DNA of 64,000 bases from Vicia villosa. Its lineage: Eukaryota; Streptophyta; Magnoliopsida; Fabales; Fabaceae. Shown here piece after piece: positions 10,262 to 64,000 of this stretch. Position 1 is the stretch's first letter, and every line of letters begins with the position of its first letter. The notes beneath the pieces are model-generated. The model did not search any database. It saw nothing but the letters and a program-made list of their open reading frames with translations, and was not told where the DNA came from. A program made the position numbers and the translations under genes. The stretch lies in NCBI RefSeq assembly GCF_029867415.1, contig NC_081184.1, positions 113,791,476-113,855,475 of the forward strand. The letters are read 5' to 3'.

Positions 10262-11394
<1,133 letters not shown>

Positions 11395-18724: not shown

Positions 18725-19269
18725 TTTTCACAAAAGTTAACAATTGTTTTCAAGTAATAATTATATATAGGAAGTAGAAAATGAAGGGCAATGCCTACTT
18801 AGACTAAGTAATACCATCTAAAAATATACTTTTTGGTTGAGCATAATGCCTACTTAGACTAAGTAATGTCATTTAAATGTAATTTACTATGTTCTGTTAA
18901 AGAGTCGCGCAATAGATATGATATGACTTGATGAAAAAGTGTTTATAATGGGAGCCATACGTCGCAAGATAAATCGGTTCTGTTAGTTGAATTAGAACAA
19001 AATCCAAATTTTAAGATGGTTTCGAATTGTTATGTAGGATTGAGTTAAATCCAAACTCATTCTAAAATGTTAAAAAAAAATTACAGTGAATCTTGACGGA
19101 TGTTGTAATTCTAGTTTAGTTTGAAGAGCATTAATATAGTTGGTGAAAATGGAAGGATCAGTCTTCAGAGAATTAGAACTTGGTGTGAATCGACAACGAA
19201 AAATGTTAAATAGCACAAATATTGTGGAAACACATAACTGTGGGGTATAAACCAGGCACTACAAATATT

Positions 19270-19560
19270 AACCAAAAACTAGTCGGAATATGCGAAAAAC
19301 ACGAATGTTTCGTTTTTCCGAAAAACTCAATATTTCATATTTTGGAATAAAATTCGTTTTTTGTTAAAAACTCGATTTTTTCCTTTTGTTGAAAAACCTG
19401 ATTTCTTGTTTTTCCAAAAATCTTGATTTTTTTTTCAATTCTGAAGACAAGAAAATTGATTCCTTCGTTTTTTCGAAAAAAAACTCAATTTTTACCTTTT
19501 CCTGATAAACGCGATTGTTTTGTTTTTCTGAAAAAAACACATTATTTCGTTTTTCCGAGA
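19270..19560. repeat. T-rich degenerate repeat (ttttccgaaaaactc-like)
   Basis: About ten imperfect copies of a 25-35 bp motif (run of T, ccgaaaaa, c-t-c-g/a-a) occur in unit 1. Equivalent segments recur in every unit, for example 32885-33145, 49395-49660, 57590-57860 and 60885-61145. Open frames here on either strand are low-complexity artefacts. Confidence 0.7.
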
Positions 19561-20303
19561 GCTATATACATATTTACATCATGACATTACTGTACAACAA
19601 AATCCTAAAAAAATAAGGAGGTGAGGAATCATATAAAGCTGCAAAATTGATGTACATAATTCTGTTCTATATTTTGGAAGGGATTGGAGACCATCCCGTT
19701 GATAGAATTCTTTTTTCCAAATCCCGTAGATAATCTGTCTAGCTTTTGAATAAAACAAAAGCAGTGATATTTAACCAAGAACACTTCATCTATTCATGTT
19801 TCAAGTAAAAACAACTTAGCTTTAAAGAACAGTCGATCAAATCCATATGGAGGGGTCACTAAATGGTGTTGCCATATCTGATGAAAACTTGACTAGGTTC
19901 TCTCGAAAAATTAACATGTCACCCCCCAAATTAAACATGCCACCCCTCAAACCTACGAAAAAAATTAAACTGTCCAACCAATTTTCATTATCACATTTTA
20001 ACAAATTTACGGAAAATCCTAAAAAATAAGGGGTGGGGAATCGAATAATGTTGCAACTAAAGCTGCAAAATTGATGTAAATAATTCTGTTCTATATCTTG
20101 AAAGGATTAGAGACCATCCTGTTGATATAATTCTTTTTGCCAAAATCATGTAGATAAATCTATCTAGCCATCTATTCTTGTTTGAAGTAAAATCTATCAA
20201 ACCCGTATGGAGGGGTTTCTAAATTGTGTTGCCATAGCATCATCTATCAAACTCATATGGAGGAGTTTCTAAATTGTGTTGCCATAGCATCTGATAGAAA
20301 CTT

Positions 20304-21518
20304 TGAAGGATAGAAAAACACTTAGAAAGGGGGGGGGGTTTGAATAAGTGTAGTCTAAAAGCTTGAACCATAAAAACAATTTGCACAATTATTTTTATCC
20401 TGGTTCGTTGTTAACTAAACTACTCCAGTCCACCCCCTTGGAGTGATTTACCTCACCTGAGGATTTAATCCACTAATCTCAATAGATTACAATGGTTTTC
20501 CACTTAGCCCGCGACTAAGTCTTCTAGAGTATCCTGATCACAACCTGATCACTCTAGGAACAATTGCTTAGACACAAGCTAAGACTTTCTAGAGTATCCT
20601 GACCACCACGTGATCACTCTAGTTACAACTGCTTAGACACAAGCTAAGACTTCCTAGAGTATCCTGATCACACTTGATCACTCTAGTTACTTACAAATTA
20701 ATGTAATCAAATTCTAAGAGTATTACAATGCTTCTGAAAAGCTATAATCACAACAGTGATATTTCTCTTAAAGTTTAAGCTTAATCTCACTAATATATTA
20801 CAACAGCAATGTAGTGAGCTTTGATGAAGATGAAGTTTGTGAGCTTTGATTTGAACAGCGTTTCAGCAAGTTAGTATTCACAGAATTCGTCAGAATCGGT
20901 AACCTTGCTTCTCATCAGAACTTCATATTTATAGGCACTTGAGAAGATGACCGTTGGGAGCATTTAATGCTTTGCGTATTCCGTACAGCATTGCATTTAA
21001 TGTTTCACTCTTTTGTCAACTACCTCGAGCCTTGTTTACGCTGTGTCTACTGACGTTGCCTTTAATAGCTTCTAACGTTCCTTTTGTTAGTCAGCGTAGC
21101 CTGCCATCTTGTACTTTCCTCTGATCTGATGTTTGTGTATACAACGTTTGAATATCATCAGAGTCAAACAGCTTGGTGCAGAGCATCTTCTTGTCTTCTG
21201 ACCTTGAAGTGCTTCTGAGCGTGATACCATGAGAACTTCAGCGCTTCTGCTTCTGATCTCAAGTTCTTCTGATGCTTCCATAGACCCATGTTCTGATTCT
21301 GCTTTGACCATCTTCTGATGTCTTGCTAGACCATGTTCTGATGTTGCATGCTGAAACTTCTGAGTCAAAGCTTCTAAGCGCTGATTTGTGCATACTCTTT
21401 ATATATTTCCTGAAAGGGAAATTGCAGTGTATTAGAGTACCACATTATCTCATCCAAAATTCATATCCTTGTTATCATCAAAACTAAGAATATTGATCAG
21501 AACAAATCTTGTTCTAAC
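20304..21518 (-). repeat. Sirevirus 3' LTR
   Basis: On the minus strand it begins TGTTAGAACAAG after the PPT and ends CTATCCTTCA. It is nearly identical to the LTR at 29379-30595. Confidence 0.95.
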
Positions 21519-21532
21519 AATCTCCCCCTTTT
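21519..21532 (-). promoter_or_regulatory. Sirevirus polypurine tract
   Basis: The minus strand reads AAAAAGGGGGAGAT directly before the 3' LTR. Further GGGGGAGA tracts at ~21635-21660 and ~22488-22500 fit the multiple-PPT habit described for Sireviruses. Confidence 0.85.
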
Positions 21533-21634
21533 TGATGATGACAAAAACATATATAAATGATATGAATTTGCGATCAGAAAGAGCAGAAGGCTAAAAACAA
21601 TTACACAACTAAAGCATAAGCATGTGAATATGTC

Positions 21635-21680
21635 TCCCCCTGAGATTTATAATCTCCCCCTGAGATAGATAATCCCCCCT
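21635..21680 (-). repeat. additional PPT-like tracts
   Basis: Three copies of a ctccccctgaga(t)-like block occur within about 45 bp, read as TCTCAGGGGGAG on the minus strand. Confidence 0.7.
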
Positions 21681-21756
21681 GAAATAAATACTAGAAGATT
21701 TTTAATAATAAAAGACTTCCCTGAGTATTTCAGTAGAGACGTTCACATATGCTTGA

Positions 21757-22030
21757 TCTTCAGAACATTCATGACTTTTGATTCTTGCTTCCATAGGACA
21801 GCTTCAGAACTTTGAATTTCTTTAGATCCTCAGAACATTCACAACTTCTGATTCTTGCTTCCATCGGACAGCTTCAGAACTTGAATTTCTTTGATCTTCA
21901 GAACATTCACAGCTTCTGATTCTTGCTTCCATCGGACAGCTTCAGAACTTGAATTTCTTTGATCTTCAGAACATTCACAGCTTCCGATTCTTGCTTCCAT
22001 CAGGACAACTTCAGAGCTTGAATTTCTTCT
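21757..22030. repeat. ~68-bp tandem repeat, four copies
   Basis: Copies start with gatcttcagaacattca or variants near 21757, 21827, 21894 and 21962. Each contains ttcttgcttccat and gacagcttcagaact. The repeat lies in the region between the env-like ORF and the 3' LTR. Confidence 0.8.
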
Positions 22031-22657
22031 TACATCACTTCATGCTAGATTGTATCAGAACATTGTTGAATGTACCAGAGCATCATCAGAGCATCTCTAC
22101 ATCCTGAAATGTTATAGAACAACGCTAAACGACAAAAGTTAGCATGAATGAGTCAGAACATAGAATATGTTTCAGAACACATAATATGTATCAGAGCCAC
22201 ATAATATGTATCTGAACAAATAGACATAATGTTTCAGAGCATATTCTATCATCAGAATATCTGAACATTCTTCCTTCTTGCTTCTTGCTTCTGATTCTGA
22301 AGCTTCATAGCACTCAGCTTGCTTCAAGAATCCAAGAGCTTGATTCTTTAGACTTGCTTCTCCTTGAAGAGGATCTTCAATTCCTGCAACAACAAAACTT
22401 AAAGCATAGAACTTTGCAAATTATGTTAGAAATGTGAGGCCTTTTTACTCGGTAACTGATAATATTAATCAGATCATTTATCACATTTTCTCCCCCTTTT
22501 TGTCATAACATCAAAAACATAAAAGATTCAGATGAAATGCAAAAGACAATAGGAAAGAAACAGAATTAAACATTTTCATTGATTTGAAAGAGAAAGTACA
22601 CAAAAAGATGCAGAACAAACAGATGCAACAAGGAAAGAAAACTACAGTGGCCAAAGA

Positions 22658-23890
22658 CTAAGACCCTAGCCTAGACAAAATCTGCGCCAGTATGTCATGA
22701 ATCCTGTCAGTGCTTGCAGTTTTCCTTGCCATGAAGGAGCGAAACTCAGCATTGGTTGCTTCTTGCGTGTCCAAACGAGAAGCTAGCATGGCTTGATTCT
22801 GATGTAGAGCATCCAAAGTGTTCATCAGAGCTGAGGGTTCACCAGAAGAAAAAGCGCCAGAGCTTCTGCCAACAGGGACAGCAATCTCAGCAGGGCGATC
22901 TTCTGAAAGGTCTTCAGCTTCTGCACCTTCCATCTCAACATCTGAGTCTGACTCAGAATCAGCCTCAGCATATTCTGGTTCAGGCAACTCAGAAGCTCCA
23001 ACTTCCAACGCCTTAAGGATAGCTGCTAGGTTTGTTGGAGGAGTTAGACCAGCAACTTCTGCAGGATAAACCACTTCTGGAAAGACCATGTGAGGAGCGC
23101 TTTCAGAAGGGTTCATTCTGAACCAATTAAACAACCATTGAAAATCTCCAGTCAGCACTGGATTCCATGGTCTCCATACCACGATGTCTCTGCAGGGATT
23201 TCCTTCTTCCATCTCATCTGCAGGTATCCTCTCTTCAAGAACTCTTCTGTTCCTGATGAGATGTTGATAGCTGCTTTCACCAGCTTCCAAAAGAAGACCA
23301 CGAGCACCAGGTGCTTCAGTCATGATCCTTCTCTGGACATCCATAGCCCTAACCAGAAAATCCTGGCGAAAAGCTTCCCAGAGGTTGCAGGTAGCAGGCT
23401 CATCCAGATGGTTAAGGTGTGCAGCACCCAGAATCTCCAACCAGCTATTTACATCTGAGTGTAAAAGCTCTAGATAGGTATGAGTGGTAGGTGTTGGAGG
23501 GTTGACTGTGAATCTGGAATCAGGATACACACAGCTGTAGGGGTTAGGTGTTCTGGTGGGAAAAAGGTGTGAGAGAGATGAGGAGATATCTGTGAGATGG
23601 GTTGAGGGGGAAGAGATATCAGACGGTGATGATGGTGGTTGCAGAGAGATGAATGAAGAGGAAGAGGTGGTGGAGGTCTGTGCAGAGGGAGGTGATTGAG
23701 GGATACCTTCAAGGGGTTTAAACACACGTCTAGAGTAGTTTCCAGACATCATAGCTTCAAAAGGATTCACCTTGAGAGGATCGTAGGTGATCCTTATCCT
23801 TTTTGTTTGTTTTCAGATTCTTCGGTTGCCTTTCTCTTTTGTTTACGATCAGTTGCTTGATTTGATGAGCTTGACGAAGGTTTCATGGTG
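22658..23890 (-). pseudogene. Sirevirus env-like ORF
   Basis: This ORF lies downstream of RNase H, where Sireviruses carry their env-like ORF. An ATG near 23885 opens MKPSSSSSNQATDRKQKRKA. The frame ends at TAA (near 23797), and a one-base shift in the A-run joins it to RIRITYDPLKVNPFEAMMSG, open to 22658 (370 codons from a GTG at 23770). The N-terminal third is Ser/Pro-rich, followed by an acidic stretch (SESDSDVEMEGAEAEDLSED). The C-terminus is helical and possibly a coiled coil. I see no clear transmembrane segment, so the 'envelope' role is family lore and not visible here. Confidence 0.65.
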
Positions 23891-24348
23891 ACGTTGCAGA
23901 TAGAGAAGAACCGCTAGGGTTTATGATATGAATGCAGAGAGAGAGAGAGCAAAAAATGAAACTGAATGCAAGAGAGAGAAATATAAGAGGGAAAAGAAAC
24001 GTTTGAAGAATATAAAAGAAAAGAAATAAAAAGAAATGATGGATAGCATTTAATGTTACGTGACGTGAGGAGAGATAATTATGACAAAAGAAGTGATTAA
24101 CACAGTTACCTAAGTAGGCGTCCCATCAACTGCACGCATGCTTTTCCAGAAATAGTGAATACGTGTTCATTTTCTGGAGAGACTGGTGACAGCTGTTTTG
24201 CTTTAAAAGAGCTTCTGAATCAACTTAGATAAAGATACGTTAGAGATAACAGAATCAGAGATTCTAATTGATTAGTATCAGAACTTCTTATGGCTGCCTA
24301 GTCTTAACACATTTCAGAAGATACTCAAACAAAGATCTTCTCATCTTC
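23891..24348. other. Sirevirus spacer between RNase H and env-like ORF
   Basis: No coding sequence is seen. A gagagagagagagc tract (~23936-23950) lies just upstream of the env-like start. Confidence 0.5.
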
Positions 24349-25233
24349 TCATTCTGGGCACAAGTCCATACTGATATTCTTCAGAATGAACTTAAACCTA
24401 TCTTCAGCAAGGGGTTTTGTAAAGATATCAGCCCATTGATGGTCTGTATCCACAAAATTTAAAGATATAACACCCTTTTGAACATAGTCCCTTATGAAAT
24501 GATGTTTAATCTCAATATGTTTAGCTTTTGAATGTAAGATAGGATTCTTTGATAAACATATAGCAGAAGTATTATCACAGAAGATAGGAATGTTACTCTC
24601 ATATATCTGATAATCTTCTAGCTGACTTCTCATCCAGAGCATTTGTGTGCTACAACCAGCAGCAGCAACATATTCTGCTTCTGTTGTTGAGAGGGCAATA
24701 GTAGCTTGCTTCTTGCTGTACCATGAGATCAGATGACTTCCAAGAAATTGACAACTTCCAGAAGTGCTCTTTCTTTCAATTCTATCTCCAGCATAGTCAG
24801 CATCACAGAATCCTACTAAGTTGTATTCTTTGGATCTTCTGTAGACTAAACCAACATTAGTAGCACCTTTCAGATACCTCAGAATTCTCTTAACAGCAAT
24901 TAAATGAGATTCTCTCGGATCTGATTGGAATCTAGCACACAAGAAAACACTGAAGAGAATGTCAGGTCTAGAAGCAGTTAGGTATAGAAGAGAACCAATC
25001 ATACCTCTGTACACCTTCTGATCTACCTTCTTACTTACCTCATCCTTACCTAGGACGCATGTTGGATGCATAGGAGTTTTGGCTTCTTTGCTTTCAGAAA
25101 GATTAAACTTCTTCAGAAGTTCTTTCACATACTTCGTTTGATGAACATAGGTTCCATCAGAAGTTTGGTTGATTTGAATCCCAAGGAAATACTTGAGTTC
25201 TCCCATCATGCTCATTTCAAATTCAGCCTGCAT
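24349..25233 (-). pseudogene. Sirevirus RT C-terminus and RNase H (frameshifted from pol)
   Basis: This 294-codon frame begins MQAEFEMSMMGELKYFLG, normally continuous with RT, and ends shortly before 24349. The RNase H shows FCDADYAGD, STSGSCQFLG, ISWYSKKQATIALSTTEAEY and FCDNTSAICL, so the catalytic acidic residues are present. It differs in frame from the upstream ORF, which it overlaps by 22 bp. A one-base deletion around 25230 explains the split. Confidence 0.92.
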
Positions 25234-27017
25234 AGATCAGCAAACTCCTTTCCAAGTGTAGCATTAGATGTTCCAAAGATGATATCATCAACATATATTT
25301 GACAGATTAAAATATCCTTTTTAAAGGTTTTACAAAAGAGAGTAGTGTCCACTTTTCCTCTAGTGAAACCATTTTCTAGAAGGAAAGAACTTAAACGTTC
25401 ATACCAAGCTCTAGGAGCTTGCTTCAATCCGTATAATGATTTCTTTAATTTAAAAACATGATTTGGAGACTTGGAGTCTTCAAAACCAGGAGGTTGATGG
25501 ACATAAACTTCTTCATCTATATAACCATTTAAGAAGGCACTCTTGACATCCATCTGATAAAGAGTGATGTTGTGTTGAGTGGCAAAAGAAATTAATAGAC
25601 GAATAGATTCTAACCTGGCCACTGGTGCAAAGGTTTCTGTGTAGTCAATCCCTTCTTGCTGACTATAGCCCTGAGCAACCAGTCTGGCTTTGTTTCTTAC
25701 CACTTCTCCCTTCTCGCTTAGCTTGTTTCTGAATACCCACTTAGTGCCGATGATGTTAAATCCTTTTGGTCTAGGAACCAAGTCCCATACATCATTCCTT
25801 GTAAACGGATTGAGTTCTTCTTGCATGGCAATTATCCAGTCTGGATCTTCTAGAGCTTGATAAACAGAAGTTGGCTCGATCAAAGAAATAAGACCTAATT
25901 GACACTCTGCATTGTTCTTAAGGAATGCCCTTGTTCTGATGGGATCGTCTTTCTTTCCAAGGATCACATCTTCTGAATGAGCTGATGCAAGTCTGGGTGA
26001 TCTTCTGACTGTTGGCTCTTCAGAAATCCTGAGATTCTCTAAAGATGCAGCAACTTGATCTTCTGATCCATTGCTTCTGAGACTGCCAGCTTTTGCAGCT
26101 TTGCTTCTTGGTTCTACAGCTTCTGATATATCAATATCTATATCTGCAAAATTCTCAAGCTGCTTTGGTTTTTCAAGACCAAGCTTATCATCAAACCTGA
26201 TATTGATTGATTCTTCTACAATCAATGTTTCAGTATTGTATACTCTATAGCCTTTAGAGCGTTCAGAATATCCAAGAAGGAAACACTTTTGTGCTTTAGA
26301 ATCAAACTTACCAAGATGATCTTTAGTATTTAGAATAAAACATACACATCCAAAAGGATGGAAATATGAAATGTTGGGCTTTCTGTTCTTCCACAATTCA
26401 TAAGGAGTCTTATTTAGAATAGGTCTGATAGAGATTCTATTCTGAATGTAACATGCAGTGTTTATTGCTCCTGCCCAGAAATGCTTAGCCATATTGGTTT
26501 CATTGATCATGGTTCTGGCCATTTCTTGTAGAGTCCTATTCTTTCGCTCTACAACTCCATTTTGCTGTGGAGTTCTAGGACAAGAGAAATCATGGGCAAT
26601 GCCATTTTCTTTGAAGAACTCCTCAAAGAATTTGTTCTCAAATTCACCACCATGATCACTTCTAACCTTTATGATTTTGCACTCTTTCTCAGATTGGATC
26701 TGAGTGCAGAAATCAAAGAACACTGAATGAGACTCATCCTTGTGTTTTAAGAACTTTACCCATGTCCAGCGGCTATAATCATCAACGATGACTAATCCAT
26801 ATTTCTTCCCTCTAACAGATGCTGTTTTGACTGGGCCAAACAGATCAATGTGCAAGAGTTCTAACGGCCTTGAGGTAGACACAACATTCTTAGACTTGAA
26901 TGCAGGTTTGGAGAACTTGCCCTTCTGACATGCTTCACAAAGAGCATTTGATTTGTATTTCAGATTTGGGAGTCCTCTGACCAGATTTAGTTTGTTAATC
27001 TGAGAAATCTTTCTCAA
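25212..27017 (-). pseudogene. Sirevirus integrase and reverse transcriptase
   Basis: This 601-codon frame contains the second half of the integrase zinc finger (CEACQKGKF). The integrase core motifs are HIDLFGPVKT, VRSDHGGEFENKFF and PQQNGVVERKNRTLQ (D, D, E). RT motifs are TKWVFRNKL, YTETFAPVAR, QMDVKSAFLNG and YVDDIIFG. It is in frame with the protease fragment upstream but separated from it by one TAA. It ends at a frameshift before the rest of RT. Confidence 0.93.
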
Positions 27018-27050
27018 ACTAGCATGTCCTAATCTTCTGTGCCAGACCCA

Positions 27051-27482
27051 TTACTCCTCTGAAACAGACATAAGACAAGTCACCTTCTGCTTCTCAAGAT
27101 CAAAAATATCAATCTTATAAATGTTGTTCTTTCTCTTGCCTGTAAATAGGATTGAGCCATCCTTCTGACTTACAGCCTTGCAAGACTTTTGATTGAAGAT
27201 TATATCATAACCATTGTCACTTAATTGACTTATGGACAATAAGTTATGCGTTAATCCTTCTACAAGAAGTACATTAGTTATGGAAGGAGAGTTACCAAGA
27301 CTTATGGTTCCAGAGCCAATGATTTTGCCCTTCTGATCTCCTCCAAACTTGACTTCTCCACCTGGTTTAAGCACCAGGTCTTGGAATGTAGACCTTCTTC
27401 CCGTCATGTGTCGCGAGCACCCAGAGTCCAGGTACCATGACATTTTGCTTTTTGTCCTCTTTGCAGCCAAGGATATCTGCAA
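27051..27482 (-). pseudogene. Sirevirus protease region
   Basis: MSWYLDSGCSRHMTG carries the copia protease D-S-G. The frame ends at TAA (27051-27053), just before WVWHRRLGHA, the start of the integrase zinc finger. The stop is an in-frame nonsense change. The frame overlaps the end of gag by about 115 bp in a different frame, which could be natural gag/pol frameshifting or a mutation. Confidence 0.85.
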
Positions 27483-29292
27483 CAGAAATTATCTTCTCCT
27501 TAGGTACCCACAATTTCTTGGGTCCTTTCTTGTTAGTTCTCCTCAAGTTCTGATTGAACTTGGGTTTAGCATAATATATAACAGGAGGAACAACATGATA
27601 TTCTTTAGGTTTGTCAGCATGATATTTCTTAGGATGTGTCACATGCTTCTTGGTGTGAACAGTGTTAAAACTTTGTGCATGTGAAGTGAGCCTAATATCA
27701 TGTGCATGGCCATATTTGAACTGATCGTACAATGGCTTGTATGTGATCTTCAGATCATCAATAGGTTCAAATTTATGTGAGGTATCACCCTCATAGCCAA
27801 AGCCAAACCTTCTGTTTCCAGAAACTCCATATATCATAGAAGCAAGATGACTTCTGCCAATGCTTCTAGATAAGAACTTTCTGAAGCTCGAGTCATATTC
27901 TTTCAGAATATGATTGAGACTCGGAATGGATTTTTCTGTTTCAGAAGGAGATCCACTATCTTTGGATAGATTTAAAACTTTTTCCTTCAGTTCAGAATTT
28001 TCCACTTCCAGCTTCTTAGTTTCAAATTCAAACTGCTTCTTCAGCTTTTTGTATTTGATACTAAGATGAGCCTTGAGTTCCAGAAGTTCTGTTAAACTGG
28101 AAACTAACTCTTCTCTAGATAGTTCAGAAAATACCTCTTCAGAATCTGATTCTGATGTAGATTCTGATCCATCATCTTCTGTAGCCATCAGCGCGAAGTT
28201 GGCTTGCTCTCCTTCAGAGTCTGATTCTGATTCTGATTCAGAATCATCCCATGTTGCCATAAGACCTTTCTTCTTATGAAACTTCTTCTTGGGATTCTCC
28301 TTCTGAAGTTTTGGACATTCATTCTTGAAGTGTCCAGGCTCATTGCACTCATAGCAGACAGCCTTCTTCTTGTCAGATCTTCTGTCACCAGAAGATTCTC
28401 CTCGTTCAAATCTCTTTGAACTTCTGAAGCCTCTGAACTTCCTTTGCTTTCTCTTCCAGAGTTGGTTTACCCTTCTGGAGATCATGGACAGTTCATCTTC
28501 TTCTTCTGATTCTGATTCTTCAGAATCTTCTTCTTTAGCCTGAAAAGCGTTAGTGCATTTTTTAACATTTGATTTTAATGCAATAGACTTACCTTTTTTC
28601 TGAGGCTCGTTTGCATCCAGCTCTATTTCATGGCTTCTCAAGGCACTGATAAGCTCTTCCAAAGAAACTTCATTCAGATTCTTTGCAATCTTGAATGCTG
28701 TTACCATTGGACCCCATCTTCTGGGTAAGCTTCTGATAATCTTCTTTACATGATCAGCCTTGGTGTAGCCTTTATCCAGAACTCTTAATCCAGCAGTTAG
28801 CGTTTGAAATCTTGAGAACATCTTCTCAATGTTTTCATCATCCTCCATCTTGAAGGCTTCATATCTTTGGATTAGAGCAAGAGCTTTAGTCTCCTTGACT
28901 TGAGCATTTCCCTCATGGGTCATTTTCAATGACTCATATATATCATAAGCCGTTTCCCTGTTAGATATCTTCTCATACTCAGCATGAGAGATAGCATTCA
29001 GCAAAACAGTCCTACATTTATGATGATTCTTGAAAAGCTTCTTCTGATCATCATCCATTTCTTGCCTTGTAAGCTTTACGCCACTAGCTTTCACTGGATG
29101 TTTGTAACCATCCATCAGAAGATCCCATAGTTCACCATCTAGACCAAGAAAGTAACTTTCCAGTTTATCTTTCCAATATTCAAAGTTTTCACCATCAAAT
29201 ACTGGTGGTCTAGTATAACCATTGTTACCATTGTATTGCTCAGCAGAGCCAGATGTAGATGCAGGTGGGTTTGTTGGAATTTCACCAGCCAT
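27367..29292 (-). CDS. Sirevirus gag
   Basis: The 641-residue ORF starts MAGEIPTNPP, 90 bp inside the 5' LTR edge. It has the copia gag domain (FDGENFEYWKDKLESYF, EGNAQVKETKALALIQRYEA), a CCHC knuckle CYECNEPGHFKNEC at about residues 313-326 and an acidic Ser/Glu/Asp stretch. A long C-terminal extension typical of Sireviruses follows. Its last residues (VPGLWVLATHDG...) are the protease region read out of frame, so the natural end is probably near 27450. Confidence 0.92.
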   Translation of the reverse strand: MAGEIPTNPPASTSGSAEQYNGNNGYTRPPVFDGENFEYWKDKLESYFLGLDGELWDLLMDGYKHPVKASGVKLTRQEMDDDQKKLFKNHHKCRTVLLNAISHAEYEKISNRETAYDIYESLKMTHEGNAQVKETKALALIQRYEAFKMEDDENIEKMFSRFQTLTAGLRVLDKGYTKADHVKKIIRSLPRRWGPMVTAFKIAKNLNEVSLEELISALRSHEIELDANEPQKKGKSIALKSNVKKCTNAFQAKEEDSEESESEEEDELSMISRRVNQLWKRKQRKFRGFRSSKRFERGESSGDRRSDKKKAVCYECNEPGHFKNECPKLQKENPKKKFHKKKGLMATWDDSESESESDSEGEQANFALMATEDDGSESTSESDSEEVFSELSREELVSSLTELLELKAHLSIKYKKLKKQFEFETKKLEVENSELKEKVLNLSKDSGSPSETEKSIPSLNHILKEYDSSFRKFLSRSIGRSHLASMIYGVSGNRRFGFGYEGDTSHKFEPIDDLKITYKPLYDQFKYGHAHDIRLTSHAQSFNTVHTKKHVTHPKKYHADKPKEYHVVPPVIYYAKPKFNQNLRRTNKKGPKKLWVPKEKIISVADILGCKEDKKQNVMVPGLWVLATHDGKKVYIPRPGA

Positions 29293-29361
29293 CTTTTACT
29301 GAAGCATTTTTCTCTTCCTGAATCTTTTCTAAACACGGTTAAGTGCTTGCACCTTAGAACC

Positions 29362-29378
29362 GGCGCTCTGATGCCAAT
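29362..29378 (-). promoter_or_regulatory. Sirevirus primer-binding site (initiator Met tRNA)
   Basis: The minus strand reads TTGGCATCAGAGC directly after the 5' LTR. The canonical plant iMet PBS is TGGTATCAGAGC, so there is one mismatch. Confidence 0.85.
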
Positions 29379-30595
29379 TGAAGGATAGAAAAACACTTAG
29401 AAAGGGGGGGGGGGGTTGAATAAGTGTAGTCTAAAAGCTTGAACGATAAAAACAATTTGCACAGTTATTTTTATCCTGGTTCGTTGTTAACTAAACTACT
29501 CCAGTCCACCCCCTTGGAGTGATTTACCTCACCTGAGGATTTAATCCACTAATCTCAACAGATTACAATGGTTTTCCACTTAGCCCGCGACTAAGTCTTC
29601 TAGAGTATCCTGATCACAACCTGATCACTCTAGGAACAATTGCTTAGACACAAGCTAAGACTTTCTAGAGTATCCTGACCACCACGTGATCACTCTAGTT
29701 ACAACTGCTTAGACACAAGCTAAGACTTCCTAGAGTATCCTGATCACACTTGATTACTCTAGTTACTTACAAATTAATGTAATCAAATTCTAAGAGTATT
29801 ACAATGCTTCTGAAAAGCTATAATCACAACAGTGATATTTCTCTTAAAGTTTAAGCTTAATCTCACTAATATATTACAACAGCAATGTAGTGAGCTTTGA
29901 TGAAGATGAAGTTTGTGAGCTTTGATTTGAACAGCGTTTTAGCAAGTTAGTATTCACAGAATTCGTCAGAATCGGTAACCTTGCTTCTCATCAGAACTTC
30001 ATATTTATAGGCACTTGAGAAGATGACCGTTGGGAGCATTTAATGCTTTGCGTATTCCGTACAGCATTGCATTTAATGTTTCACTCTTTTGTCAACTACC
30101 TCGAGCCTTGTTTACGCTGTGTCTACTGACGTTGCCTTTAATAGCTTCTAACGTTCCTTTTGTCAGTCAGCGTAGCCTGCCATCTTGTACTTGCTTCTGA
30201 TCTGATGTTTGTGTATACAACGTTTGAATATCATCAGAGTCAAACAGCTTGGTGCAGAGCATCTTCTTGTCTTCTGACCTTGAAGTGCTTCTGAGCGTGA
30301 TACCATGAGAACTTCAGCGCTTCTGCTTCTGATCTCAAGTTCTTCTGATGCTTCCATAGACCCATGTTCTGATTCTGCATTGACCATCTTCTGATGTCTT
30401 GCCAGACCATGTTCTAATGTTGCATGCTGAACCTTTTGAGTCAAAGCTTCTGAGCGCTGATTTGTGCATACTCTTTATATATTTCCTGAAAGGGAAATTG
30501 CAGTGTATTAGAGTACCACATTATCTCATCCAAAATTCATATCCTTGTTATCATCAAAACTAAGAATATTGATCAGAATAAATCTTGTTCTAACA
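29379..30595 (-). repeat. Sirevirus 5' LTR
   Basis: This is the second LTR copy, 1217 bp. It includes a poly-G run at 29405-29415, a length variant of the run in the other LTR. Confidence 0.95.
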
Positions 30596-36701: not shown

Positions 36702-36722
36702 GCTGCCCCTGTTCAATCTTCT
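36702..36722 (-). promoter_or_regulatory. Ogre-like PPT region
   Basis: The minus strand reads GATTGAACAGGGGCAGC immediately before TGTCATACCCC. It is a weak polypurine tract, repeated beside LTR b. Confidence 0.5.
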
Positions 36723-52690: not shown

Positions 52691-53305
52691 TTTTTTAACA
52701 CTATTTTCTTTCATTTTTCTTCACAACTTTAATTAATCATTTAACTAACCAAATCAATTCATTTTTGCTTCATTTTTTAAACACTATTCATTTAATATAT
52801 ATATTTTAAGGATATCAAAAAAAATCATCAAAAAATATTTATTTGATACATTTTTAAATAGGTTTAAAATGACTTATTTTTAAGTATTTTTAATACTTTA
52901 AATATTGTTTTTTTTCATTTAATTTTAACCTAATCACTTGTAAATATTTTTTGAATAAACCCTAATCATCTAAGTGTTAATTGAACACAATCTTTTTGTC
53001 TATCTTGATTAATTTAACTCCTTTCAAAATTCAAACCATTCTAAAACGAGCAATCGTTCTTTTCAAAACGATAAACCATTTTCTTTTGATTTTCAAAGAA
53101 AACTATTGATTAAATCTTTTTAATTGATCAATTGATTTTCAAAACGAAGTGGGGCCTCTCGAATATTAGAGAGTGTAAGTCCCATTTCTTTTCCTTTTGT
53201 ACAGTTTTTTAAACAATAAAACTTCTTCAAAATAAAATCTTTTCAAACAATTTTCAAATCATTTTCAAAACAACCAAACTTCAAAGAAACAAAGCTTTTC
53301 AATAT

Positions 53306-53517
53306 ACCATGGGCCTCCATGTAGGTATAAGTCCCAAGCCCTTTTGTACATACCCATTCCAGTACATGAAACTAGGTATTTCATTGTACGTCTTTTTGTA
53401 CATATCTCGATCAGTTTGATTTTTAACTTTGAATAACAAACCAAAAATGAAGGTTTCTTTAAATCTTCCCAAAAATACCATGGGCCTCCATGTAGGTATA
53501 AGTCCCAAGCCCTTTTG
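53306..53517. repeat. ~40-bp direct repeat pair in the solo LTR
   Basis: Two copies begin atgggcctccatgtaggtat, at ~53309 and ~53480. Confidence 0.8.
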
Positions 53518-53874
53518 GAAATACCTGTTTACATAGCTTTGAATAAATTCAAGTGGACCTCTCCCCGAGTATAAGTCCCGAGCCCCGTGTATACAAATGG
53601 ATCATGCTTACAGGTATATTTCCTTCATAAACTCCATTATATACACACACTCTGTCATATATATAATTGTTCGTACCTGTTCATGTTTGTTCATACTTGT
53701 TCATGTTTGTTCATATGTGTGATATGTGTGCTTGTTCAACTTAGTACAACACTAGGTTCCCCATAGCCTCCTATTGGGCTTCGTGCAAAGAATCTCCCTA
53801 GTTTAGGTTAGGACATAGAGTATGGTTTCCCGGTGAAATCGCTCTAAGAGCTCAAACCAACTATACCATGCCTC

Positions 53875-54045
53875 CCCTTGGGCTTTGTACAAACGAGTGA
53901 CCCTCCCATAGCCTCCTCTTGGGCTTACAATGCAAGGACCCTGGATTGTCCCTCCCATAGCCTCCTCTTGGGCTTACAATGCAAGGACCCTCGGATAGCC
54001 TCCTCTTGGGCTTCGTACAAGGACCCACGGGCTTCTTATAAGCAT
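53875..54045. repeat. tandem repeats with cctcctcttgggctt
   Basis: Four spaced copies of gcctcctcttgggctt occur, two of them followed by acaatgcaaggaccct. They are inside the solo LTR. Confidence 0.75.
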
Positions 54046-54149
54046 CCCCCAATATCCAAAACAAATACCCTAGGAGATTAGACATTTTTCATCTCTATGC
54101 TAGGAGTATCTCTTCTATATCATCACAAACAATCAATCAATCAAAATCA

Positions 54150-54370
54150 AACTTTTTGCCACAAGGCTGGCTAATCAATCAAACTTCTTTTTTGCCACAA
54201 GGCTGGCTAATCAATCAAACCGTTTTGCCACCATACTGGCTGATTAATCAAAGTTTTTGTCACAAGGCTGACTTCATTGAAACTTTTGCCACGAGGCTGG
54301 CTGATTAATCAAAACTTTTTGTCACAAGGCTGACTTCATTGAAAGTTTTTGCCACAAGGCTGGTTAAACA
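54150..54370. repeat. tandem repeats with gccacaaggctggctaatcaa
   Basis: Six or more variants of ttttgccacaaggctggct spaced 30-45 bp lie in the 3' part of the solo LTR. Confidence 0.8.
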
Positions 54371-57300
54371 AACAAAAATCAAACAGATGTATGTGATGAT
54401 ATAGATTAGATACATCTAGCATTTAGACGACATTTGTCTATTTTCCTTTGCTTCCACTAGCATAAGTGGGAACTACGATTGCTCTGACTTTCTCAACATC
54501 CCTTTGAGAATACGTAGGCACAAGGTCGATCCTTGGCGAGCAAAACAAAACACAAAAAACCATTCAAACCTTAGCACCCGTAGACCCCGAGCTACAGATG
54601 CTCTGATTCCCTCTAAGGGATATGTATGCAGAGGATCGCGATGATCTTTGCGAGCATAATCAAACAAACACCTTAGGTCCCACCTACTTCACAACAGAAC
54701 CTCTCAACAACATGGAATGAAAAACAAAGCAAAGAAACCTATAGAGTACTATAGATACGTTGGGTGCTAATACCTTCCCTTCGTATAACCAACCCTCTTA
54801 CCCAAGATCTCTCCCCCCACTTTTAGGTTATTGCAGCTTTTTTCCTTTTCCTCCTTTGGAAATAATAAAAAGTTTGGTCGATACAAAAGAAAAATCATTT
54901 TTTATGAGCACTCGAGCCCAAAGAAGGCATCAGGTGTCTCATCCCACAAAAAAGAGGAACAAAACGATTTTTCGCCCGCGACACCAACCAATTTTCATTA
55001 TCACATTTTAACAAATTTACGTAAAATCCTAAAAAATAAGCGGTGGGGAATCGAATAATGTTGCAACTAAAGCTGCAAAATTGATGTAAATAATTCTGTT
55101 CTATATCTTGAAAGGATTAGAGACCATCCTGTTGATATAATTCTTTTTGCCAAAATCATGTAGATAAATCTATCTAGCCATCTATTCATGTTTGAAGTAA
55201 AATCTATCAAACCCATATGGAGGGGTTTCTAAATTGTGTTGCCATAGCATCATCTATCAAACTCATATGGAGGAGTTTCTAAATTGTGTTGTCATAGCAT
55301 CTGATAGAAACTTGACTAGGTTCTCTCTCTCTCAACATTTTTCTCCTTCTTAAGTTCAAGATGTCGAACCTGGAGGCATTTTAAACCAGTTAATGTAATA
55401 TTGTCTAACAGACGGTCATACGCACAAATGAAGCATTCCAATTCTCATATAAAAAGAATTGTTAGATCATTTCTACGATTCTACGAGCATCGATTAGTTT
55501 ACTGTATTAGAAATTCAATAAAAACACCACAACTCTAATAACAATATGGACATTGATAAAGTTATGTATATGGAGCATAATAGATTAACCTAGGACATTT
55601 TCTGTATTATTAAGGAATTGATTGCAACCTATCACAAACATGATTTTTCGTGCAATACATGTTTATTTAAGATAGAATTGATTTTGCCTCTAAACCTCTT
55701 ATAGTAAAAGTAATAAAAAGGTAATTTTGGCTTTAGCTTAACATTTAGAGAACAAGAATCCAAATATAAAACACTTCACCTCAAGCTCAATCTTATGTCT
55801 TAACCGAACAATGAAATTATAGAAAAGTATATTATTACTTTAACTGAGTCAATAAGGGAAAAACCTGCATCTGTAGTAATAACAAGATATTTGATATCAT
55901 ATTCATTAGCGTACTCATACTGCTCGCAAAGACTTGGATCAAGGACGGGGACAAAATGAATAACGGAACTTTAGATTATAAACCTAAATTATACAAATCA
56001 AAATTGCTTAGAAAACTCAACCTTAAAGTTCTCTTGCCATAATTCAAAAAATAGCTCCATGCGCTCCACCAACAGACCATTACCTCCTTCTGAGCACACA
56101 AGGATACCACCTCCTCTTGAGCACACAAGAATATTGATGCTAACTTCATTTCGGAAACATTTGAGAAAGTCAAATGTGTATATATGAACCCATCATCAAC
56201 TAAGCCAACTTCTATTAAGTACTTCTGCTATTTGTGTTCATGTTAGCGTGCACACCACACTCATGGGCACTACTGTATAATTGAAAAGCCAATGCTAAGG
56301 AGATTATAGTGTAAAAAAATAAGAAAACCAATAAAAAATGTGACCTTAAGGATACTAACCGATTGAGTACAGAACAATTTCGAATTATTGTCTCTAAGGT
56401 AAGGCAGGGCTAGTTCCCACACCAGTGGGGGAATTTCCGTTTTGCATAATAGAAAAGACAGACTATTAGAAACAACGTAAAACTCCTAGTCAAAAGAAGC
56501 TTTAAGTTTTCTAAGATTGCTACATGCAGGAAGAAAACATCCTGAACAACTGAAGCAGATGCAAAAGAAACATGCCGATATCATCAGTTAAGTTAACTGA
56601 CACTAATATGTTGAGCGTAAAGGTAACAAAAAGTATTGATAGCACAAGTGACAAACTACCACATTCAATAAGAACTTAATCATACTCAGACCAATGACTT
56701 TAAGCATGATTAGTTGATAACACAACAAGGGACCAAAGCAAGTAACAATCAAATTATATAATGGTTAAAAATACATAGAAATACGGATATTGAACATTAT
56801 GCTAAAATAATAGAGAAAGTAGTGCAAAAACTACCAAGGACATTTTCTTTCCTTTCATATACAGTTCAGAATTCAGATATAAATACCTTTTCTCCTCTAC
56901 ATTTAATATCTTGTTTTAATAGGCTGGGATCTTATTGTGAGTTTTTAGTTCTTCGTTCTTAATTTTGAAAGTCAATATCGTAATCAAATTTTGTTTGGAT
57001 AAAACAGGGATGAGCTGGGTTTTCACAAAAGTTAACAATTGTTTTCAAGTAATAATTATATATAGGAAGTAAAAAATGAAGGGCAATGCCTACTTAGACT
57101 AAGTAATGCCATCTAAAAATATACTTTTTGGTTGAGCATAATGCCTACTTAGACTAAGTAATGTCATTTAAATATAATTTACTATGTTCATTTAAAGAGT
57201 CACGCATTAGATATGATATGACTTGATGAAAAAGTGTTTATAATGGGAGCCATACGTCGCCAGATAAATCGATTTTGTTAGTTAAGTTAGACCAAAATCC

Positions 57301-58140
57301 AAATTTTAAGATGGTTTCGAATTGTTATGCAGGATTGAGTTAAATCCAAACTCATTCTAAAATGTTAAAAAAAAATTATAGTGAATCTTGACGGATGTTG
57401 TAATTCTAGTTTAGTTTGAAGAGCATTAATATAGTTGGTGAAAATTGAAGGATCAGTCTTCAGAGAATTAGAACTCGGTGTGAATCGGCAACAAAAAATG
57501 ATAAATAGCACAAATATTGTGGAAACACATAACTGTTGGGTATAAACCAGGCACTACAAATATTGACCAAAAACTTGTTGGAATATGCGAAAAACACGAA
57601 TGTTTCGTTTTTCCGAAAAACTCAATATTTCATATTTTTGAATAAAATTCGTTTTTTTTGTTAAAAACTGATTTTTCTTCCTTTTGTTGAAAAACCTGAT
57701 TTCCTGTTTTTCCAAAAATCTTGATTTTTTTTCAATTCTGAAGACAAGAAAATTGATTCCTTCGTTTTTTCGAGAAAAAAAACTCAATTTTTACCTTTTC
57801 CTGATAAACGTGATTGTTTTGTTTTTCTGAAAAAATACATTATTTCGTTTTTCCGAGAGCTATATACATATTTACATCATGACATTACTGTACAACAAAA
57901 TCCTAAAAAAATAAGGAGGTGAGGAATCATATAAAGCTGCAAAATTGATGTACATAATTCTGTTCTATATTTTGGAAGGGATTGGAACCATCCCGTTGAT
58001 AGAATTCTTTTTTCCAAATCCCGTAGATAATATGTCTAGCTTTTGAATAAAACAAAAGCAGTGATATTTAACCAAGAACACTTCATCTATTCATGTTTCA
58101 GGGAAAAACAACTTAGCTTTAAAGAACAGTCGATCAAATC

Positions 58141-59722
58141 CATATGGAGGGGTCACTAAATGGTGTTGCCATAGTATCTGATAAAAACTTGACTAGGTTC
58201 TCTCGAAGAACTAACATGTCACCCCCCAAATTATACATGCCACCCCTCAAACCTACGAAGAAAATCATACAGTCCAACCAATTTTCATTATCACATTTTA
58301 ACAAATTTACGGAAAATCCTAAAAAATAAGGGGTGGGGAATCGAATAATGTTGCAACTAAAGCTGCAAAATTGATGTAAATAATTCTGTTCTATATCTTG
58401 AAAGGATTAGAGACCATCCTGTTGATATAATTCTTTTTGCCAAAATCATGTAGATAAATCTATCTAGCCATCTATTCATGTTTGAAGTAAAATCTATCAA
58501 ACCCATATGGAGGGGTTTCTAAATTGTGTTGCCATAGCATCATCTATCAAACTCATATGGAAGAGTTTCTAAATTGTGTTGCCATAGCATCTGATAGAAA
58601 CTTGACTAGGTTCTCTCTCTCAACATTTTTCTCCTTCTTAAGTTCAAGATGTCGAACCTGGAGGCATTTTAAACCAGTTAATGTAATATTGTCTAACAGA
58701 CGGTCATACGCACAAATGAAGCATTCCATTTCTCATATAAAAAGAATTGTTAGATCATTTCTACGATTCTACGAGCATCGATTAGTTTACTGTATTAGAA
58801 ATTCAATAAAAATACCACAACTCTAATAACAATATTGACATTGATAAAGTTATGTATATGGAGCATAATAGATTAACCTAGGACATTTTCTGTATTATTA
58901 AGGAATTGATTGCAACCTATCACAAACATGATTTTTCGTGCAATACATGTTTATTTAAGATAGAATGGATTTTGCCTCTAAACCTCTTATAGTAAAAGTA
59001 ATAAAAAGGTAATTTTGGCTTTAGCTTAACATTTAGAGAACAAGAATCCAAATATAAAACACTTCACCTCAAGCTCAATCTTATGTCTTAACCGAACAAT
59101 GAAATTATAGAAAAGTATATTATTACTTTAACTGAATCAATAAGGGAAAAACCTGCATCTGTAATAATAACAAGATATTTGATATCATATTCATTAGCGT
59201 ACTCATACTGCTCGCTAAGACTTGGATCAAGGACGGGGACAAAATGAATAACGGAACTTTAGATTATAATCCTAAATTATACAAATCAAAATTGCTTAGA
59301 AAACTCAACCTTAAAGTTCTCTTGCCATAATTCAAAAAATAGCTCCATGCGCTCCACCAACAGACCATTACCTCCTCCTGAGCACACAAGGATACCACCT
59401 CCTCTTGAGAACACAAGAATATTGATGCTAACTTCATTTCTGAAACAGTTGAGAAAGTCAAATGTGTATATATGAACCCATCATCAACTAAGCCAACTTC
59501 TATTAAGTACTTCTGCTATTTGTGTTCATGTTAGCGTGCACACCACACTCATGGGCACTACTGTATAATTGAAAAGCCAATGCTAAGGAGATTATAGTGT
59601 AAAAAAATAAGAAAACCAATAAAAAATGTGACCTTAAGGATACTAACCTATTGAGTACAAAACAATTTCAAATTATTGTCTCTAAGGTAAGGCAGGGCTA
59701 GTTCCCACACCAGTGGGGGAAT
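58141..59722 (-). pseudogene. GCN2-like 3' gene fragment, unit 4 (reference copy)
   Basis: On the minus strand the first segment has PTGVGTSPALP in one frame, then LETIIRNCSVLN one base off (59641-59722). An exon follows behind a clean acceptor (TTTCTGAAATG region), NEVSINILV... to ENFK (59310-59440). Next is FVPVLDPSLSEQYEYANEYD ...IKYLVIITDAG...DSVK (59127-~59245), ending at donor AAA|GTAATA. A 469 nt intron (59126-58658) ends CTCCAG. The last exon, VRHLELKKEK...ELVKFLSDAMATQFRN-like, runs 58657-58553 with a TGA. The last intron is phase 0 and the final exon is fully open here. The fragment lacks the kinase domains, and the first segment is frameshifted. Confidence 0.87.
58553..58657 (-). 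other. intact last exon of the GCN2-like fragment (unit 4)
   Basis: The exon has 34 codons plus a stop. It begins VRHLELKKEK, contains LVKFLSDAMATQFRN and ends at TGA (58553-58555). The acceptor CTCCAG directly precedes GTT CGA CAT. Only this copy has the short CT run that keeps the frame. Confidence 0.8.
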
Positions 59723-60308
59723 TTCCGTTCTGCATAATAGAAAAGACAGACTATTAGAAACAACGTAAAACTCCTAGTCAAAAGAAGCTTTAAGTTGTCT
59801 AAGATTGCTACATGCAGGAAGAAAACATCCTGAACAACTGAAGCAGATGCAAAAGAAACATGCCGATATCATCAGTTAAGTTAACTGACACTAATATGTT
59901 GAGCGTAAAGGTAACAAAAAGTATTGATAGCTCAAGTGACAAACTACCACATTCAATAAGAACTTAATCATACTCAGACCAATGACTTTAAGCATGATTA
60001 GTTGATAACACAACAAGGGACCAAAGCAAGTAACAATCAAATTATATAATGTTTAAAAATACATAGAAATACGGATTTTGAACATTATGCTAAAATAAAA
60101 GAGAAAGTAGTGCAAAAACTGCCAAGGACATTTTCTTTCCTATCATATACCTTTCAGAATTCAGATATAAACACCTTATCTCCTCTACATTTAATATCTT
60201 GTTTTGTTAGGCTGGGGATCTTATTAAGAGTTTTTAGTTCTTCGTTCTTAATTTTGAAAGTCAATATCATAATCAAATTTTGTTTGGATAAAACAGGGAT
60301 GAGTTGGG

Positions 60309-63300
60309 TTTTCACAAAAGTTAACAATTGTTTTCAAGTAATAATTATATATAGGAAGTAGAAAATGAAGGGCAATGCCTACTTAGACTAAGTAATGCCA
60401 TCTAAAAATATACTTTTTGGTTGAGCATAATGCCTACTTAGACTAAGTAATGTCATTTAAATATAATTTACTATGTTCATTTAAAGAGTCACGCATTATA
60501 TATGATATGACTTGATGAAAAAGTGTTTATAATGGGAGCCATAAGTCGCCAGATAAATCGATTTTGTTAGTTAAATTAGACCAAAATCCAAATTTTAAGA
60601 TGGTTTCGAATTGTTATGCAGGATTGAGTTAAATCCAAACTCATTCTAAAATGTTAAAAAAAAATTATAGTGAATCTTGACGGATGTTGTAATTCTAGTT
60701 TAGTTTGAAGAGCATTAATATAGTTGGTGAAAATTGAAGGATCAGTCTTCAGAGAATTAGAACTCGGTGTGAATCGGCAACGAAAAATGATAAATAGCAC
60801 AAATATTGTGGAAACACATAACTGTGGGGTATAAACCAGGCACTACAAATATTGACCAAAAACTTGTCGGAATATGCGAAAAATACGAATGTTTCGTTTT
60901 TCCGAAAAACTCAATATTTCATATTTTTGAATAAAATTCGTTTTTTTTGTTAAAAACTGATTTTTTTTCCTTTTGTTGAAAAACCTGATTTCCTGTTTTT
61001 CCAAAAATCTTGATTTTTTTTCAATTCTGAAGACAAGAAAATTGATTCCTTCGTTTTTTCGAAAAAAAAAACTCAATTTTTACCTTTTCCTGATAAACGT
61101 GATTGTTTTGTTTTTCTGAAAAAACACATTATTTCGTTTTTCCGAGAGCTATATACATATTTACATCATGACATTACTGTACAACAAAATCCTAAAAAAA
61201 TAAGGAGGTGATGAATCATATAAAGCTGCAAAATTGATGTACATAATTCTGTTCTATATTTTGGAAGGGATTGGAGACCATCCCGTTGATAGAATTCTTT
61301 TTTCAAAATCCCGTAGATAATATGTCTAGCTTTTGAATAAAACAAAAGCAGTGATATTTAACCAAGAACACTTCATCTATTCATGTTTCAGGGAAAAACA
61401 ACTTAGCTTTAAAGAACAGTCGATCAAATCCATATGGAGGGGTCACTAAATGGTGTTGCCATAGTATCTGATAAAAACTTGACTATGTTCTCTCGAAGAA
61501 TTAACATGTCACCCCCCAAATTATACATGCCACCCCTCAAACCTACGAAAAAAATCAAACTGTCCAACCAATTTTCATTATCACATTTTAACAAATTTAC
61601 GGAAAATCCTAAAAAATAAGGGGTGGGGAATCGAATAATGTTGCAACTAAAGCTGCAAAATTGATGTAAATAATTCTGTTCTATATCTTGAAAGGATTAG
61701 AGACCATCATGTTGATATAATTCTTTTTGCCAAAATCATGTAATAAATCTATCTAGCCATCTATTCATGTTTGAAGTAAAATCTATCAAGCCCATATGGA
61801 GGGGTTTCTAAATTGTGTTGCCATAGCATCATCTATCAAACTCATATGGAGGAGTTTCTAAATTGTGTTGCCATAGCATCTGATAGAAACTTGACTAGGT
61901 TCTCTCTCCCACAACATTTTTCTCCTTCTTAAGTTCAAGATGTCGAACCTGGAGGCATTTTAAACCAGTTAATGTAATATTGTCTAACAGACGGTCATAC
62001 GCACAAATGAGGTATTCCAATTCTCATATAAAAAGAATTGTTAGATCATTTCTACGATTCTACGAGCATCGATTAGTTTACTGTATTAGAAATTCAATAA
62101 AAATACCACAACTCTAATAACAATATTGACATTGATAAAGTTGTGTATATGGAGCATAATAGATTAACCTAGGACGTTTTATGTATTATTAAGGAATTGA
62201 TTGCAACCTATCACAAACATGATTTTTCGTGCAATACATGTTTATTTAAGATAGAATTGATTTTGCCTCTAAACCTCTTATAGTAAAAGTAATAAAAAGG
62301 TAATTTTGGCTTTAGCTTAACATTTAGAGAACAAGAATCCAAATATAAAACACTTCACCTCAAGCTCAATCTTATGTCTTAACCGAACAATGAAATTATA
62401 GAAAAGTATATTATTACTTTAACTGAATCAATAAGGGAAAAACCTGCATCTGTAGTAATAACAAGATATTTGATATCATATTCATTAGCGTACTCATACT
62501 GCTCGCAAAGACTTGGATCAAGGACGGGGACAAAATGAATAACGGAACTTTAGATTATAAACCTAAATTATACAAATCAAAATTGCTTAGAAAACTCAAC
62601 CTTAAAGTTCTCTTGCCATAATTCAAAAAATAGCTCCATGCGCTCCACCAACAGACCATTACCTCCTTCTGAGCACACAAGGATACCACCTCCTCTTGAG
62701 CACACAAGAATATTGATGCTAACTTCATTTCTGAAACAGTTGAGAAAGTCAAATGTGTATATATGAACCCATCATCAACTAAGCCAACTTCTATTAAGTA
62801 CTTCTGCTATTTGTGTTCATGTTAGCGTGCACACCACACTCATGGGCACTACTGTATAATTGAAAAGCCAATGCTAAGGAGATTATAGTGTAAAAAATAA
62901 GAAAACCAATAAAAATGTGACCTTAAGGATACTAACCGATTGAGTACAGAACAATTTCGAATTATTGTCTCTAAGGTAAGGCAGGGCTAGTTCCCACACC
63001 AGTGGGGGAATTTCCGTTCTGCATAATAGAAAAGACAGACTATTAGAAACAACGTAAAACTCCTAGTCAAAAGAAGCTTTAAGTTGTCTAAGATTGCTAC
63101 ATGCAGGAAGAAAACATCCTGAACAACTGAAGCAGATGCAAAAGAAACATGCCGATATCATCAGTTAAGTTAACTGACACTAATATGTTGAGCGTAAAGG
63201 TAAAAAAAAGTATTGATAGCACAAGTGACAAACTACCACATTCAATAAGAACTTAATCATACTCAGACCAATGACTTTAAGCATGATTAGTTGATAACAC

Positions 63301-63597
63301 AACAAGGGACCAAAGCAAGTAACAATCAAATTATATAATGGTTAAAAATACATAGAAATACGGATTTTGAACATTATGCTAAAATAATAGAGAAAGTAGT
63401 GCAAAAACTGCCAAGGACATTTTCTTTCCTATCATATACAGTTCAGAATTCAGATATAAATACCTTTTCTCCTCTACATTTAATATCTTGTTTTATTAGG
63501 CTGGGGATCTTATTGTGAGTTTTTAGTTCTTCGTTCTTAATTTTGAAAGTCAATATCAAAATCAAATTTTGTTTGGATAAAACAGGGATGAGCTGGG
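60309..63597. repeat. array unit 5 (intact, 3289 bp)
   Basis: This is an uninterrupted unit differing from unit 4 by scattered substitutions and small indels, for example in the CT run of the last GCN2 exon. Confidence 0.95.
61431..63010 (-). pseudogene. GCN2-like 3' gene fragment, unit 5
   Basis: The exon order is the same as unit 4: GVGTS ~62940-63010, NEVSI ~62600-62730, FVPVLDPSL ~62415-62540, VRHLELKKEK ~61945 and below, and copied exon ends at ~61796 and 61431. The CT run is changed to GTGGGAGAGAGA, which shifts the last exon. Confidence 0.85.
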
Positions 63598-64000
63598 TTT
63601 TCACAAAAGTTAACAATTGTTTTCAAGTAATAATTATATATAGGAAGTAGAAAATGAAGGGCAATGCCTACTTAGACTAAGTAATGCCATCTAAAAATAT
63701 ACTTTTTGGTTGAGCATAATGCCTACTTAGACTAAGTAATGTCATTTAAATATAATTTACTATGTTCATTTAAAGAGTCACGCATTAGATATGATATGAC
63801 TTGATGAAAAAGTGTTTATAATGGGAGCCATACGTCGCCAGATAAATCGGTTCTGTTAGTTAAATTAGACCAAAATCCAAATTTTAAGATGGTTTCGAAT
63901 TGTTATGCAGGATTGAGTTAAATCCAAACTCATTCTAAAATGTTAAAAAAAAATTATAGTGAATCTTGACGGATGTTGTAATTCTAGTTTAGTTTGAAGA
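63598..64000. repeat. array unit 6 (cut by window end)
   Basis: The first 403 bp of a further unit are present, so the array continues beyond the window. No GCN2 exon lies in this part. Confidence 0.95.

Follow-up and report, generated by a model that had tools for sequence, protein, structure and literature searches.

Within a stretch of 64,000 nucleotides of Vicia villosa DNA (C5:113,791,476-113,855,475, referred to as the window), the interval 18725-64000 (45,276 bp) contains tandem repeats related to the plant gene GCN2 (eIF2-alpha kinase 4), which raises the question of how such an array came into being and whether it encodes anything. On the evidence presented here, it is very probable that this array, named array A, is a non-coding and already decayed 3′ fragment of GCN2, lying in tandem near the full-length gene, and that it arose at a single locus through local duplication together with decay and unequal recombination.

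Array A is composed of near-identical head-to-tail units on the minus strand. Adjacent units are spaced 3289 bp apart, which is the period that a sequence-only reading of the window had put forward. The unit at 57712-61000 served as reference; the other unit pieces were placed by BLASTN with this unit and are 95.8-99.3% identical to it (differences 0.7-4.2%). The same reading had the array fill the whole interval. Unit DNA is indeed present there, but it is not continuous, being restricted to 18725-20303, 30595-33526, 47194-50081 and 54984-64000, in sum 16,416 of 45,276 bp (36%). Three insertions (TE1, TE2 and TE3) split the interval, one of them with retrotransposon proteins, the other two resembling long terminal repeats (LTRs).

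GCN2 is defined by the combination of RWD, kinase, HisRS-like and anticodon-binding domains. The parental locus, for which a search had been advised, was found on the same scaffold at approximately 114,095,410-114,111,790. This full-length GCN2 gene is situated 0.24 Mb beyond the window on the plus strand, the opposite one to array A. Its exon readings extend from MGHSSNKKKRGG to FRNPSIWV. A hand-joined exon set of 1190 amino acids with approximate exon edges contains RWD, Pkinase, tRNA-synt_His and HGTP_anticodon2, each above the Pfam cut-off, so that all four domains would occur in one protein. One intron of the gene harbors approximately 140 bp (C5, about 114,110,617-114,110,754) with an A-rich end, flanked by two copies of AATTATACAATAGTGCC. 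This piece is absent from the seven array A and array B units compared (array B is described below) and resembles a short retroelement that inserted on the lineage of the gene.

The reverse-complemented unit aligns to the 3′ part of the gene over intron stretches, the VGTS, NEAS/LVCSRGGG, AEYVPVPDPS and VRHLELKKEK exons with their intervening introns, and the 3′ flank. This exon-by-exon and intron-by-intron agreement confirms that the unit derives from the 3′ end of GCN2, with exon order, introns and protein segments as in the plant gene. As the introns are kept in gene order, a processed (retro-copied) pseudogene was rejected. Unlike the plant gene, the unit is without the exons for RWD and kinase as well as most of those for the HisRS-like part, and it is disabled. 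The idea that simply a truncated gene was amplified needs to be amended, though. While the unit is a truncated 3′ fragment, the GGRYDYLL exon, which in the gene falls between aligned stretches (20077-20169), is missing from it. It contains the last exon twice as well as extra upstream intron DNA, has a mosaic-like composition and was disabled before amplification.

The lesions can be located on the minus strand of the reference unit. GVGTS, which belongs to the GCN2 exon GNLPTGVGTSLALETIIQ, is encoded at 59697-59711, where an insertion of five nucleotides shifts the frame and a stop follows. The exon part NEVSINILV(C/F)SRGGG (59394-59438) is 27 nucleotides longer than in the gene owing to a repeat of LVCSGGG. 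Next to it, at 59310-59363, lies the exon part LLVERMELFFELWQENFK. In front of the exon part FVPVLDPSLSEQYEYANEYD (59184-59243), 21 nucleotides across the splice acceptor are deleted. The two copies of the last coding exon are situated at 58546-58676 (copy 1) and 58131-58204 (copy 2). The five-nucleotide insertion, the 27-nucleotide repeat and the lost acceptor were each detected in all eight aligned array A units, which come from both blocks of the array, and therefore these lesions preceded amplification. Over the four exons, read in the frame of the gene, the reference unit differs by 32 changed codons, 13 of them synonymous and 19 amino-acid changing or stop. Thus, the unit aligns with the exons and introns of GCN2 and at the same time carries disabling lesions, as a GCN2-derived pseudogene does. 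The claim that every unit carries all of the peptides holds for GVGTS, NEVSINILV and LLVERMELFF (5/5 window units that extend to them). It does not hold for FVPVLDPSLS, which is present in four of five units, the remaining one having a deletion of three nucleotides, nor for VRHLELKKEK...FLSDAMATQFRN. The latter is open in only one of the three window units with a complete last-exon copy 1; the other two are frameshifted by two extra nucleotides.

A second GCN2 relative, a rearranged pseudogene, is located at 113,729,260-113,735,997. It runs from gene position 22065 back to 12362, mostly on the minus strand, with inverted pieces and gaps, and no run of N separates it from the array A block of the window. 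Comparison of the array with both relatives indicated that a simple copy of the gene can be rejected, because the nearest relative differs segment by segment. In the intron segment 17692-17912, four of the nine array A units were compared and showed 90.5-92.3% identity to the pseudogene, as compared to 82.2-84.5% for the gene. Conversely, the last-exon copy 1 with its 3′ flank is gene-like. Its identity to the gene amounts to 88.9-89.6% and to the pseudogene to 81.9-82.3% in two units (89.6% and 81.9% in the reference unit). Copy 2, compared in one unit, is slightly pseudogene-like (87.0% to the pseudogene, 84.6% to the gene). The unit of array A may thus be read as a mosaic in which some parts resemble the pseudogene and others the gene.

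Searches of the genome showed how narrowly this family is distributed. With the peptides, 27 matches at E <= 0.001 were obtained (69 candidates, all scored), each of them on C5 at 113.82-114.24 Mb. The DNA search scored 39 of 432 candidates and is incomplete, since the last units of the window itself are not among the matches listed. Among the 73 matches that are listed, 70 belong to one neighborhood of 0.5 Mb: array A and its immediate borders account for 13, the gene for four, the pseudogene for three and the region 114.13-114.25 Mb for 50. The other three are short and lie elsewhere.

The largest group corresponds to a second array, array B, which is located beyond the gene and built from a different 3′ segment of GCN2 than array A. 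In the two stretches of array B that were read (17 kb together), nine junctions connect gene position 21236 with 19721. The junctions are spaced approximately 1.96 kb apart in one stretch and form a 2.94-kb composite in the other. At the single junction examined, AAGATTGA is present at both gene breakpoints. In the exon-intron segment shared by both arrays, identity to the gene amounts to 82.5-84.3% for array A and 80.5-82.6% for array B, but the arrays are only 76.1-79.0% identical to each other, in a comparison of three groups that has no outgroup and is unrooted. None of the nine array B units contains the five-nucleotide insertion, the 27-nucleotide repeat or the lost acceptor; these units differ in other ways. 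The two arrays probably have separate origins.

Taken together, the following history is proposed. GCN2 would have been duplicated in inverted orientation, and the inverted copy would have decayed into the rearranged pseudogene at about 113.729-113.736 Mb. Recombination between this pseudogene and gene-like 3′ sequence may then have created a mosaic founder of 3.3 kb, which was presumably multiplied by unequal crossing-over and fragmented by retroelements later on. Array B would go back to a further tandem duplication, which involved a different 3′ segment of GCN2 and took place beyond the gene. Most likely, the locus reflects neutral local DNA turnover rather than the emergence of new genes.

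Several points weigh against this scenario. At least two scaffold gaps lie between the block in the window and the gene, so that the relative orientation and distance of array and gene depend on the scaffolding. Over the intron segment, identity between pseudogene and gene is 86.4% and thus exceeds that between units and gene (82.2-84.5%). The difference observed with copy 2 is small, and the mosaic rests mainly on the disparity between copy 1 and the intron segment, to which unequal rates could contribute. Moreover, the pseudogene contains no segment that matches most of the gene-like part of the unit, so that the parent of the founder was not found. Finally, the last exon differs from the gene by only 3.6%, as against 8.8-18.5% in the flanking DNA. 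This closeness could be due to recent gene conversion; in our opinion, however, constraint on the gene lineage may suffice as an explanation.

One rival proposal ascribes a function to the locus at the RNA level. According to this proposal, which is unlikely, the locus would be a natural source of RNA silencing, with small RNAs from array A, array B or an inverted repeat within the pseudogene acting on the GCN2 messenger RNA. In its favor, the array in the window has 74 distinct perfect 21-mers in common with the exon pieces of GCN2, 67 of which fall into the last exon (88 positions), whereas no such 21-mers were counted in the controls (window 1-18724 and the other strand of the array interval). 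The two stretches of array B contain 33 and 18 of these words, the pseudogene region 12. A comparison of the window's array with the whole gene, excluding low-complexity words, revealed a perfect stretch of 80 nucleotides in and just before the last exon. Similarity of this kind, however, is expected of any recent gene-derived repeat. The inverted repeat (1.4 kb, C5:113,730,978-113,732,393, about 59 kb before the window) includes a HisRS-like exon and intron DNA. Its arms are 90.8% identical over an alignment of 631 bp, and for its inner 1180 nucleotides a single giant hairpin of -686 kcal/mol was predicted, compared to a mean of -206 kcal/mol for ten base-composition shuffles. Yet it shares no 21-mer with the exon pieces and only five with the whole gene (both strands, low-complexity words excluded). 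These counts weaken the case for it as an efficient silencer of GCN2. A precedent is provided by the inverted repeats of the soybean CHS I cluster, whose small interfering RNAs (siRNAs) are reported to down-regulate target messenger RNAs (PMC3804491). Both loci comprise rearranged gene copies with an inverted repeat that are related to working gene copies, but the inverted repeat at the GCN2 locus barely matches the gene.

A wider version of this proposal, which is quite improbable, regards the GCN2 locus as a self-targeting cluster, in which two flanking, independently formed 3′-end arrays and the hairpin would exert a feedback on GCN2 through small RNAs or chromatin marks. If real, self-targeting would most likely proceed via the last exon, in which array A and the gene are nearly the same, and the feedback would act on an amino-acid-starvation kinase. 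Like array A, the Stellate/Suppressor of Stellate repeats of Drosophila are arranged in tandem, derive from a gene and have a coding gene as relative, but they belong to an animal system based on PIWI-interacting RNAs, whereas array A is a plant locus.

The pieces of array A, which a further alternative regards as an assembly artefact (false repetition or mixed haplotypes), are all on the minus strand. The first piece (18725-20303) is a partial unit with exon matches (reference 2598-3289 and 1-892, 96-97% identity), cut by TE1 at 20303 inside its first last-exon copy. It is followed by units at 30595-33526 (reference 887-3289 and 1-529, 97%) and 47194-50081 (reference 964-3289 and 1-567, 98-99%). 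The longest uninterrupted run opens with a unit at 54984-57711 (reference 563-3289, 98.2%), continues with the reference unit, which was aligned to the gene, and proceeds with a unit at 61001-64000 (98.3%) beyond the window. There, array A extends for another 3.4 kb and stops at a scaffold gap of 100 N at C5:113,858,888; a further gap is located at 113,889,644. A second block of array A, interrupted once by other DNA, was found at 113,973,321-113,985,858. Five units inside the window and one just beyond make up the first block; over the aligned segment, these six share 97.7-99.4% mutual identity and are 96.1-97.0% identical to the two units of the second block that were compared.

The exact coincidence of the end of the first block with a scaffold gap speaks in favor of an artefact, as does the figure of 36.8% duplicated BUSCOs in a published Vicia villosa assembly from which duplicates were purged, according to its description (PMC10659084) and provided that this is the same assembly. 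Nevertheless, an artefact is very unlikely, as the pieces deviate from the reference unit by 0.7-4.2% and contain different insertions, two of them with target duplications. In addition, the longest clean run of array A (12.4 kb) is shorter than the mean HiFi library insert of 16.7 kb given in that description (PMC10659084), again if the assembly is identical.

As to a function at the protein level, a test peptide of 108 amino acids was joined by hand from the exons of the unit, omitting the 27-nucleotide repeat and taking the final residues from the duplicated exon end. It was recognized by Pfam as HGTP_anticodon (25.1 bits, cut-off 21), barely passed as HGTP_anticodon2 (24.5 bits, cut-off 24.4) and matched the anticodon domain of cytoplasmic HisRS structures (E ~2e-4). 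Even though Pfam still recognizes such hand-joined peptides, it is extremely unlikely that the units function as small genes, each for a GCN2-like anticodon-binding domain, given the frame-shifting insertion and lost acceptor in 8/8 aligned units, the missing GGRYDYLL exon and the frameshifted last exon in two of three window units.

The remaining question is whether array A can be called a satellite in formation. For the process, this designation is fair: as in Fabeae satellite DNA, the units are arranged head to tail, resemble one another within the array and occur in a vetch-type genome rich in repeats. Unlike those satellites, array A is gene-derived, small and interrupted, and the few copies seen lie, together with all 27 peptide matches and 70 of the 73 DNA matches listed, in one neighborhood. 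In the DNA examined, the LVCSRGGG exon was present in full or in part in nine array A units. Like the single neighborhood, this speaks against a high copy number, but the number is a lower bound, since the block of the window ends at a gap and the DNA search scored 39 of 432 candidates. One study of retrotransposon-derived satellites concerns a species which we take to be a Fabeae legume. In this study, satellite DNA is reported to originate frequently from retrotransposon-derived tandem repeats (PMC7004042).

The combination of a gene, a rearranged pseudogene with an inverted repeat, a mosaic-looking array and a second array is unusual. Literature searches, which covered open-licence papers in PubMed Central (PMC), yielded no paper on a GCN2 tandem array, and searches for GCN2 pseudogenes in legumes (by title, ABC transporters only), gene-fragment arrays with siRNAs, gene-derived tandem repeats and small RNAs arising from inverted gene duplications gave nothing relevant by title or start of the abstract. 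With gene, pseudogene, mosaic-looking unit and second array within 0.5 Mb, the formation of a gene-derived repeat seems to have been caught at a single locus. Breakpoints, the order of events and homogenization can be read there directly, and feedback of gene-end arrays on their source gene becomes testable.

Of the insertions, TE1 (20304-30595, minus strand) is a Copia-type LTR retrotransposon. Its LTRs (20304-21520 and 29378-30595) are 98.7% identical and have TG...CA ends, and Pfam matches to gag (Retrotran_gag_2), integrase and RVT_2 were obtained. TE3 (50082-54983) is a solo-LTR-like insertion of 4.9 kb, also with TG...CA ends. Both elements are bordered by clean 5-bp target duplications located inside units (AACTT for TE1, CCAAC for TE3). 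TE2 (33527-47193) has direct terminal repeats of 4.27 kb (33527-37793 and 42928-47190) which are 99.0% identical. At its site, the unit lacks positions 530-963 (434 bp), and no clean target duplication was seen there. The middle part of TE2 is short (5.1 kb) and contains nested inverted repeats at 40516-41691.

A Rfam scan of the window gave no matches at the gathering cut-off, and ribosomal DNA or another known RNA was rejected on these grounds. At window positions 3136-7373, a GC-rich region encodes RNase H and integrase domains on the plus strand and a Transposase_28 frame on the minus strand; it is further retroelement DNA. Just upstream of the window ends a pair of 5.4-kb direct repeats (C5:113,767,656-113,791,047), which are 99.8% identical and whose starts are separated by about 18 kb. 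The pair represents a young long-LTR element, presumably resembling the Ogre elements of legumes. TE3 is 92-95% similar to parts of these repeats, both ends included.

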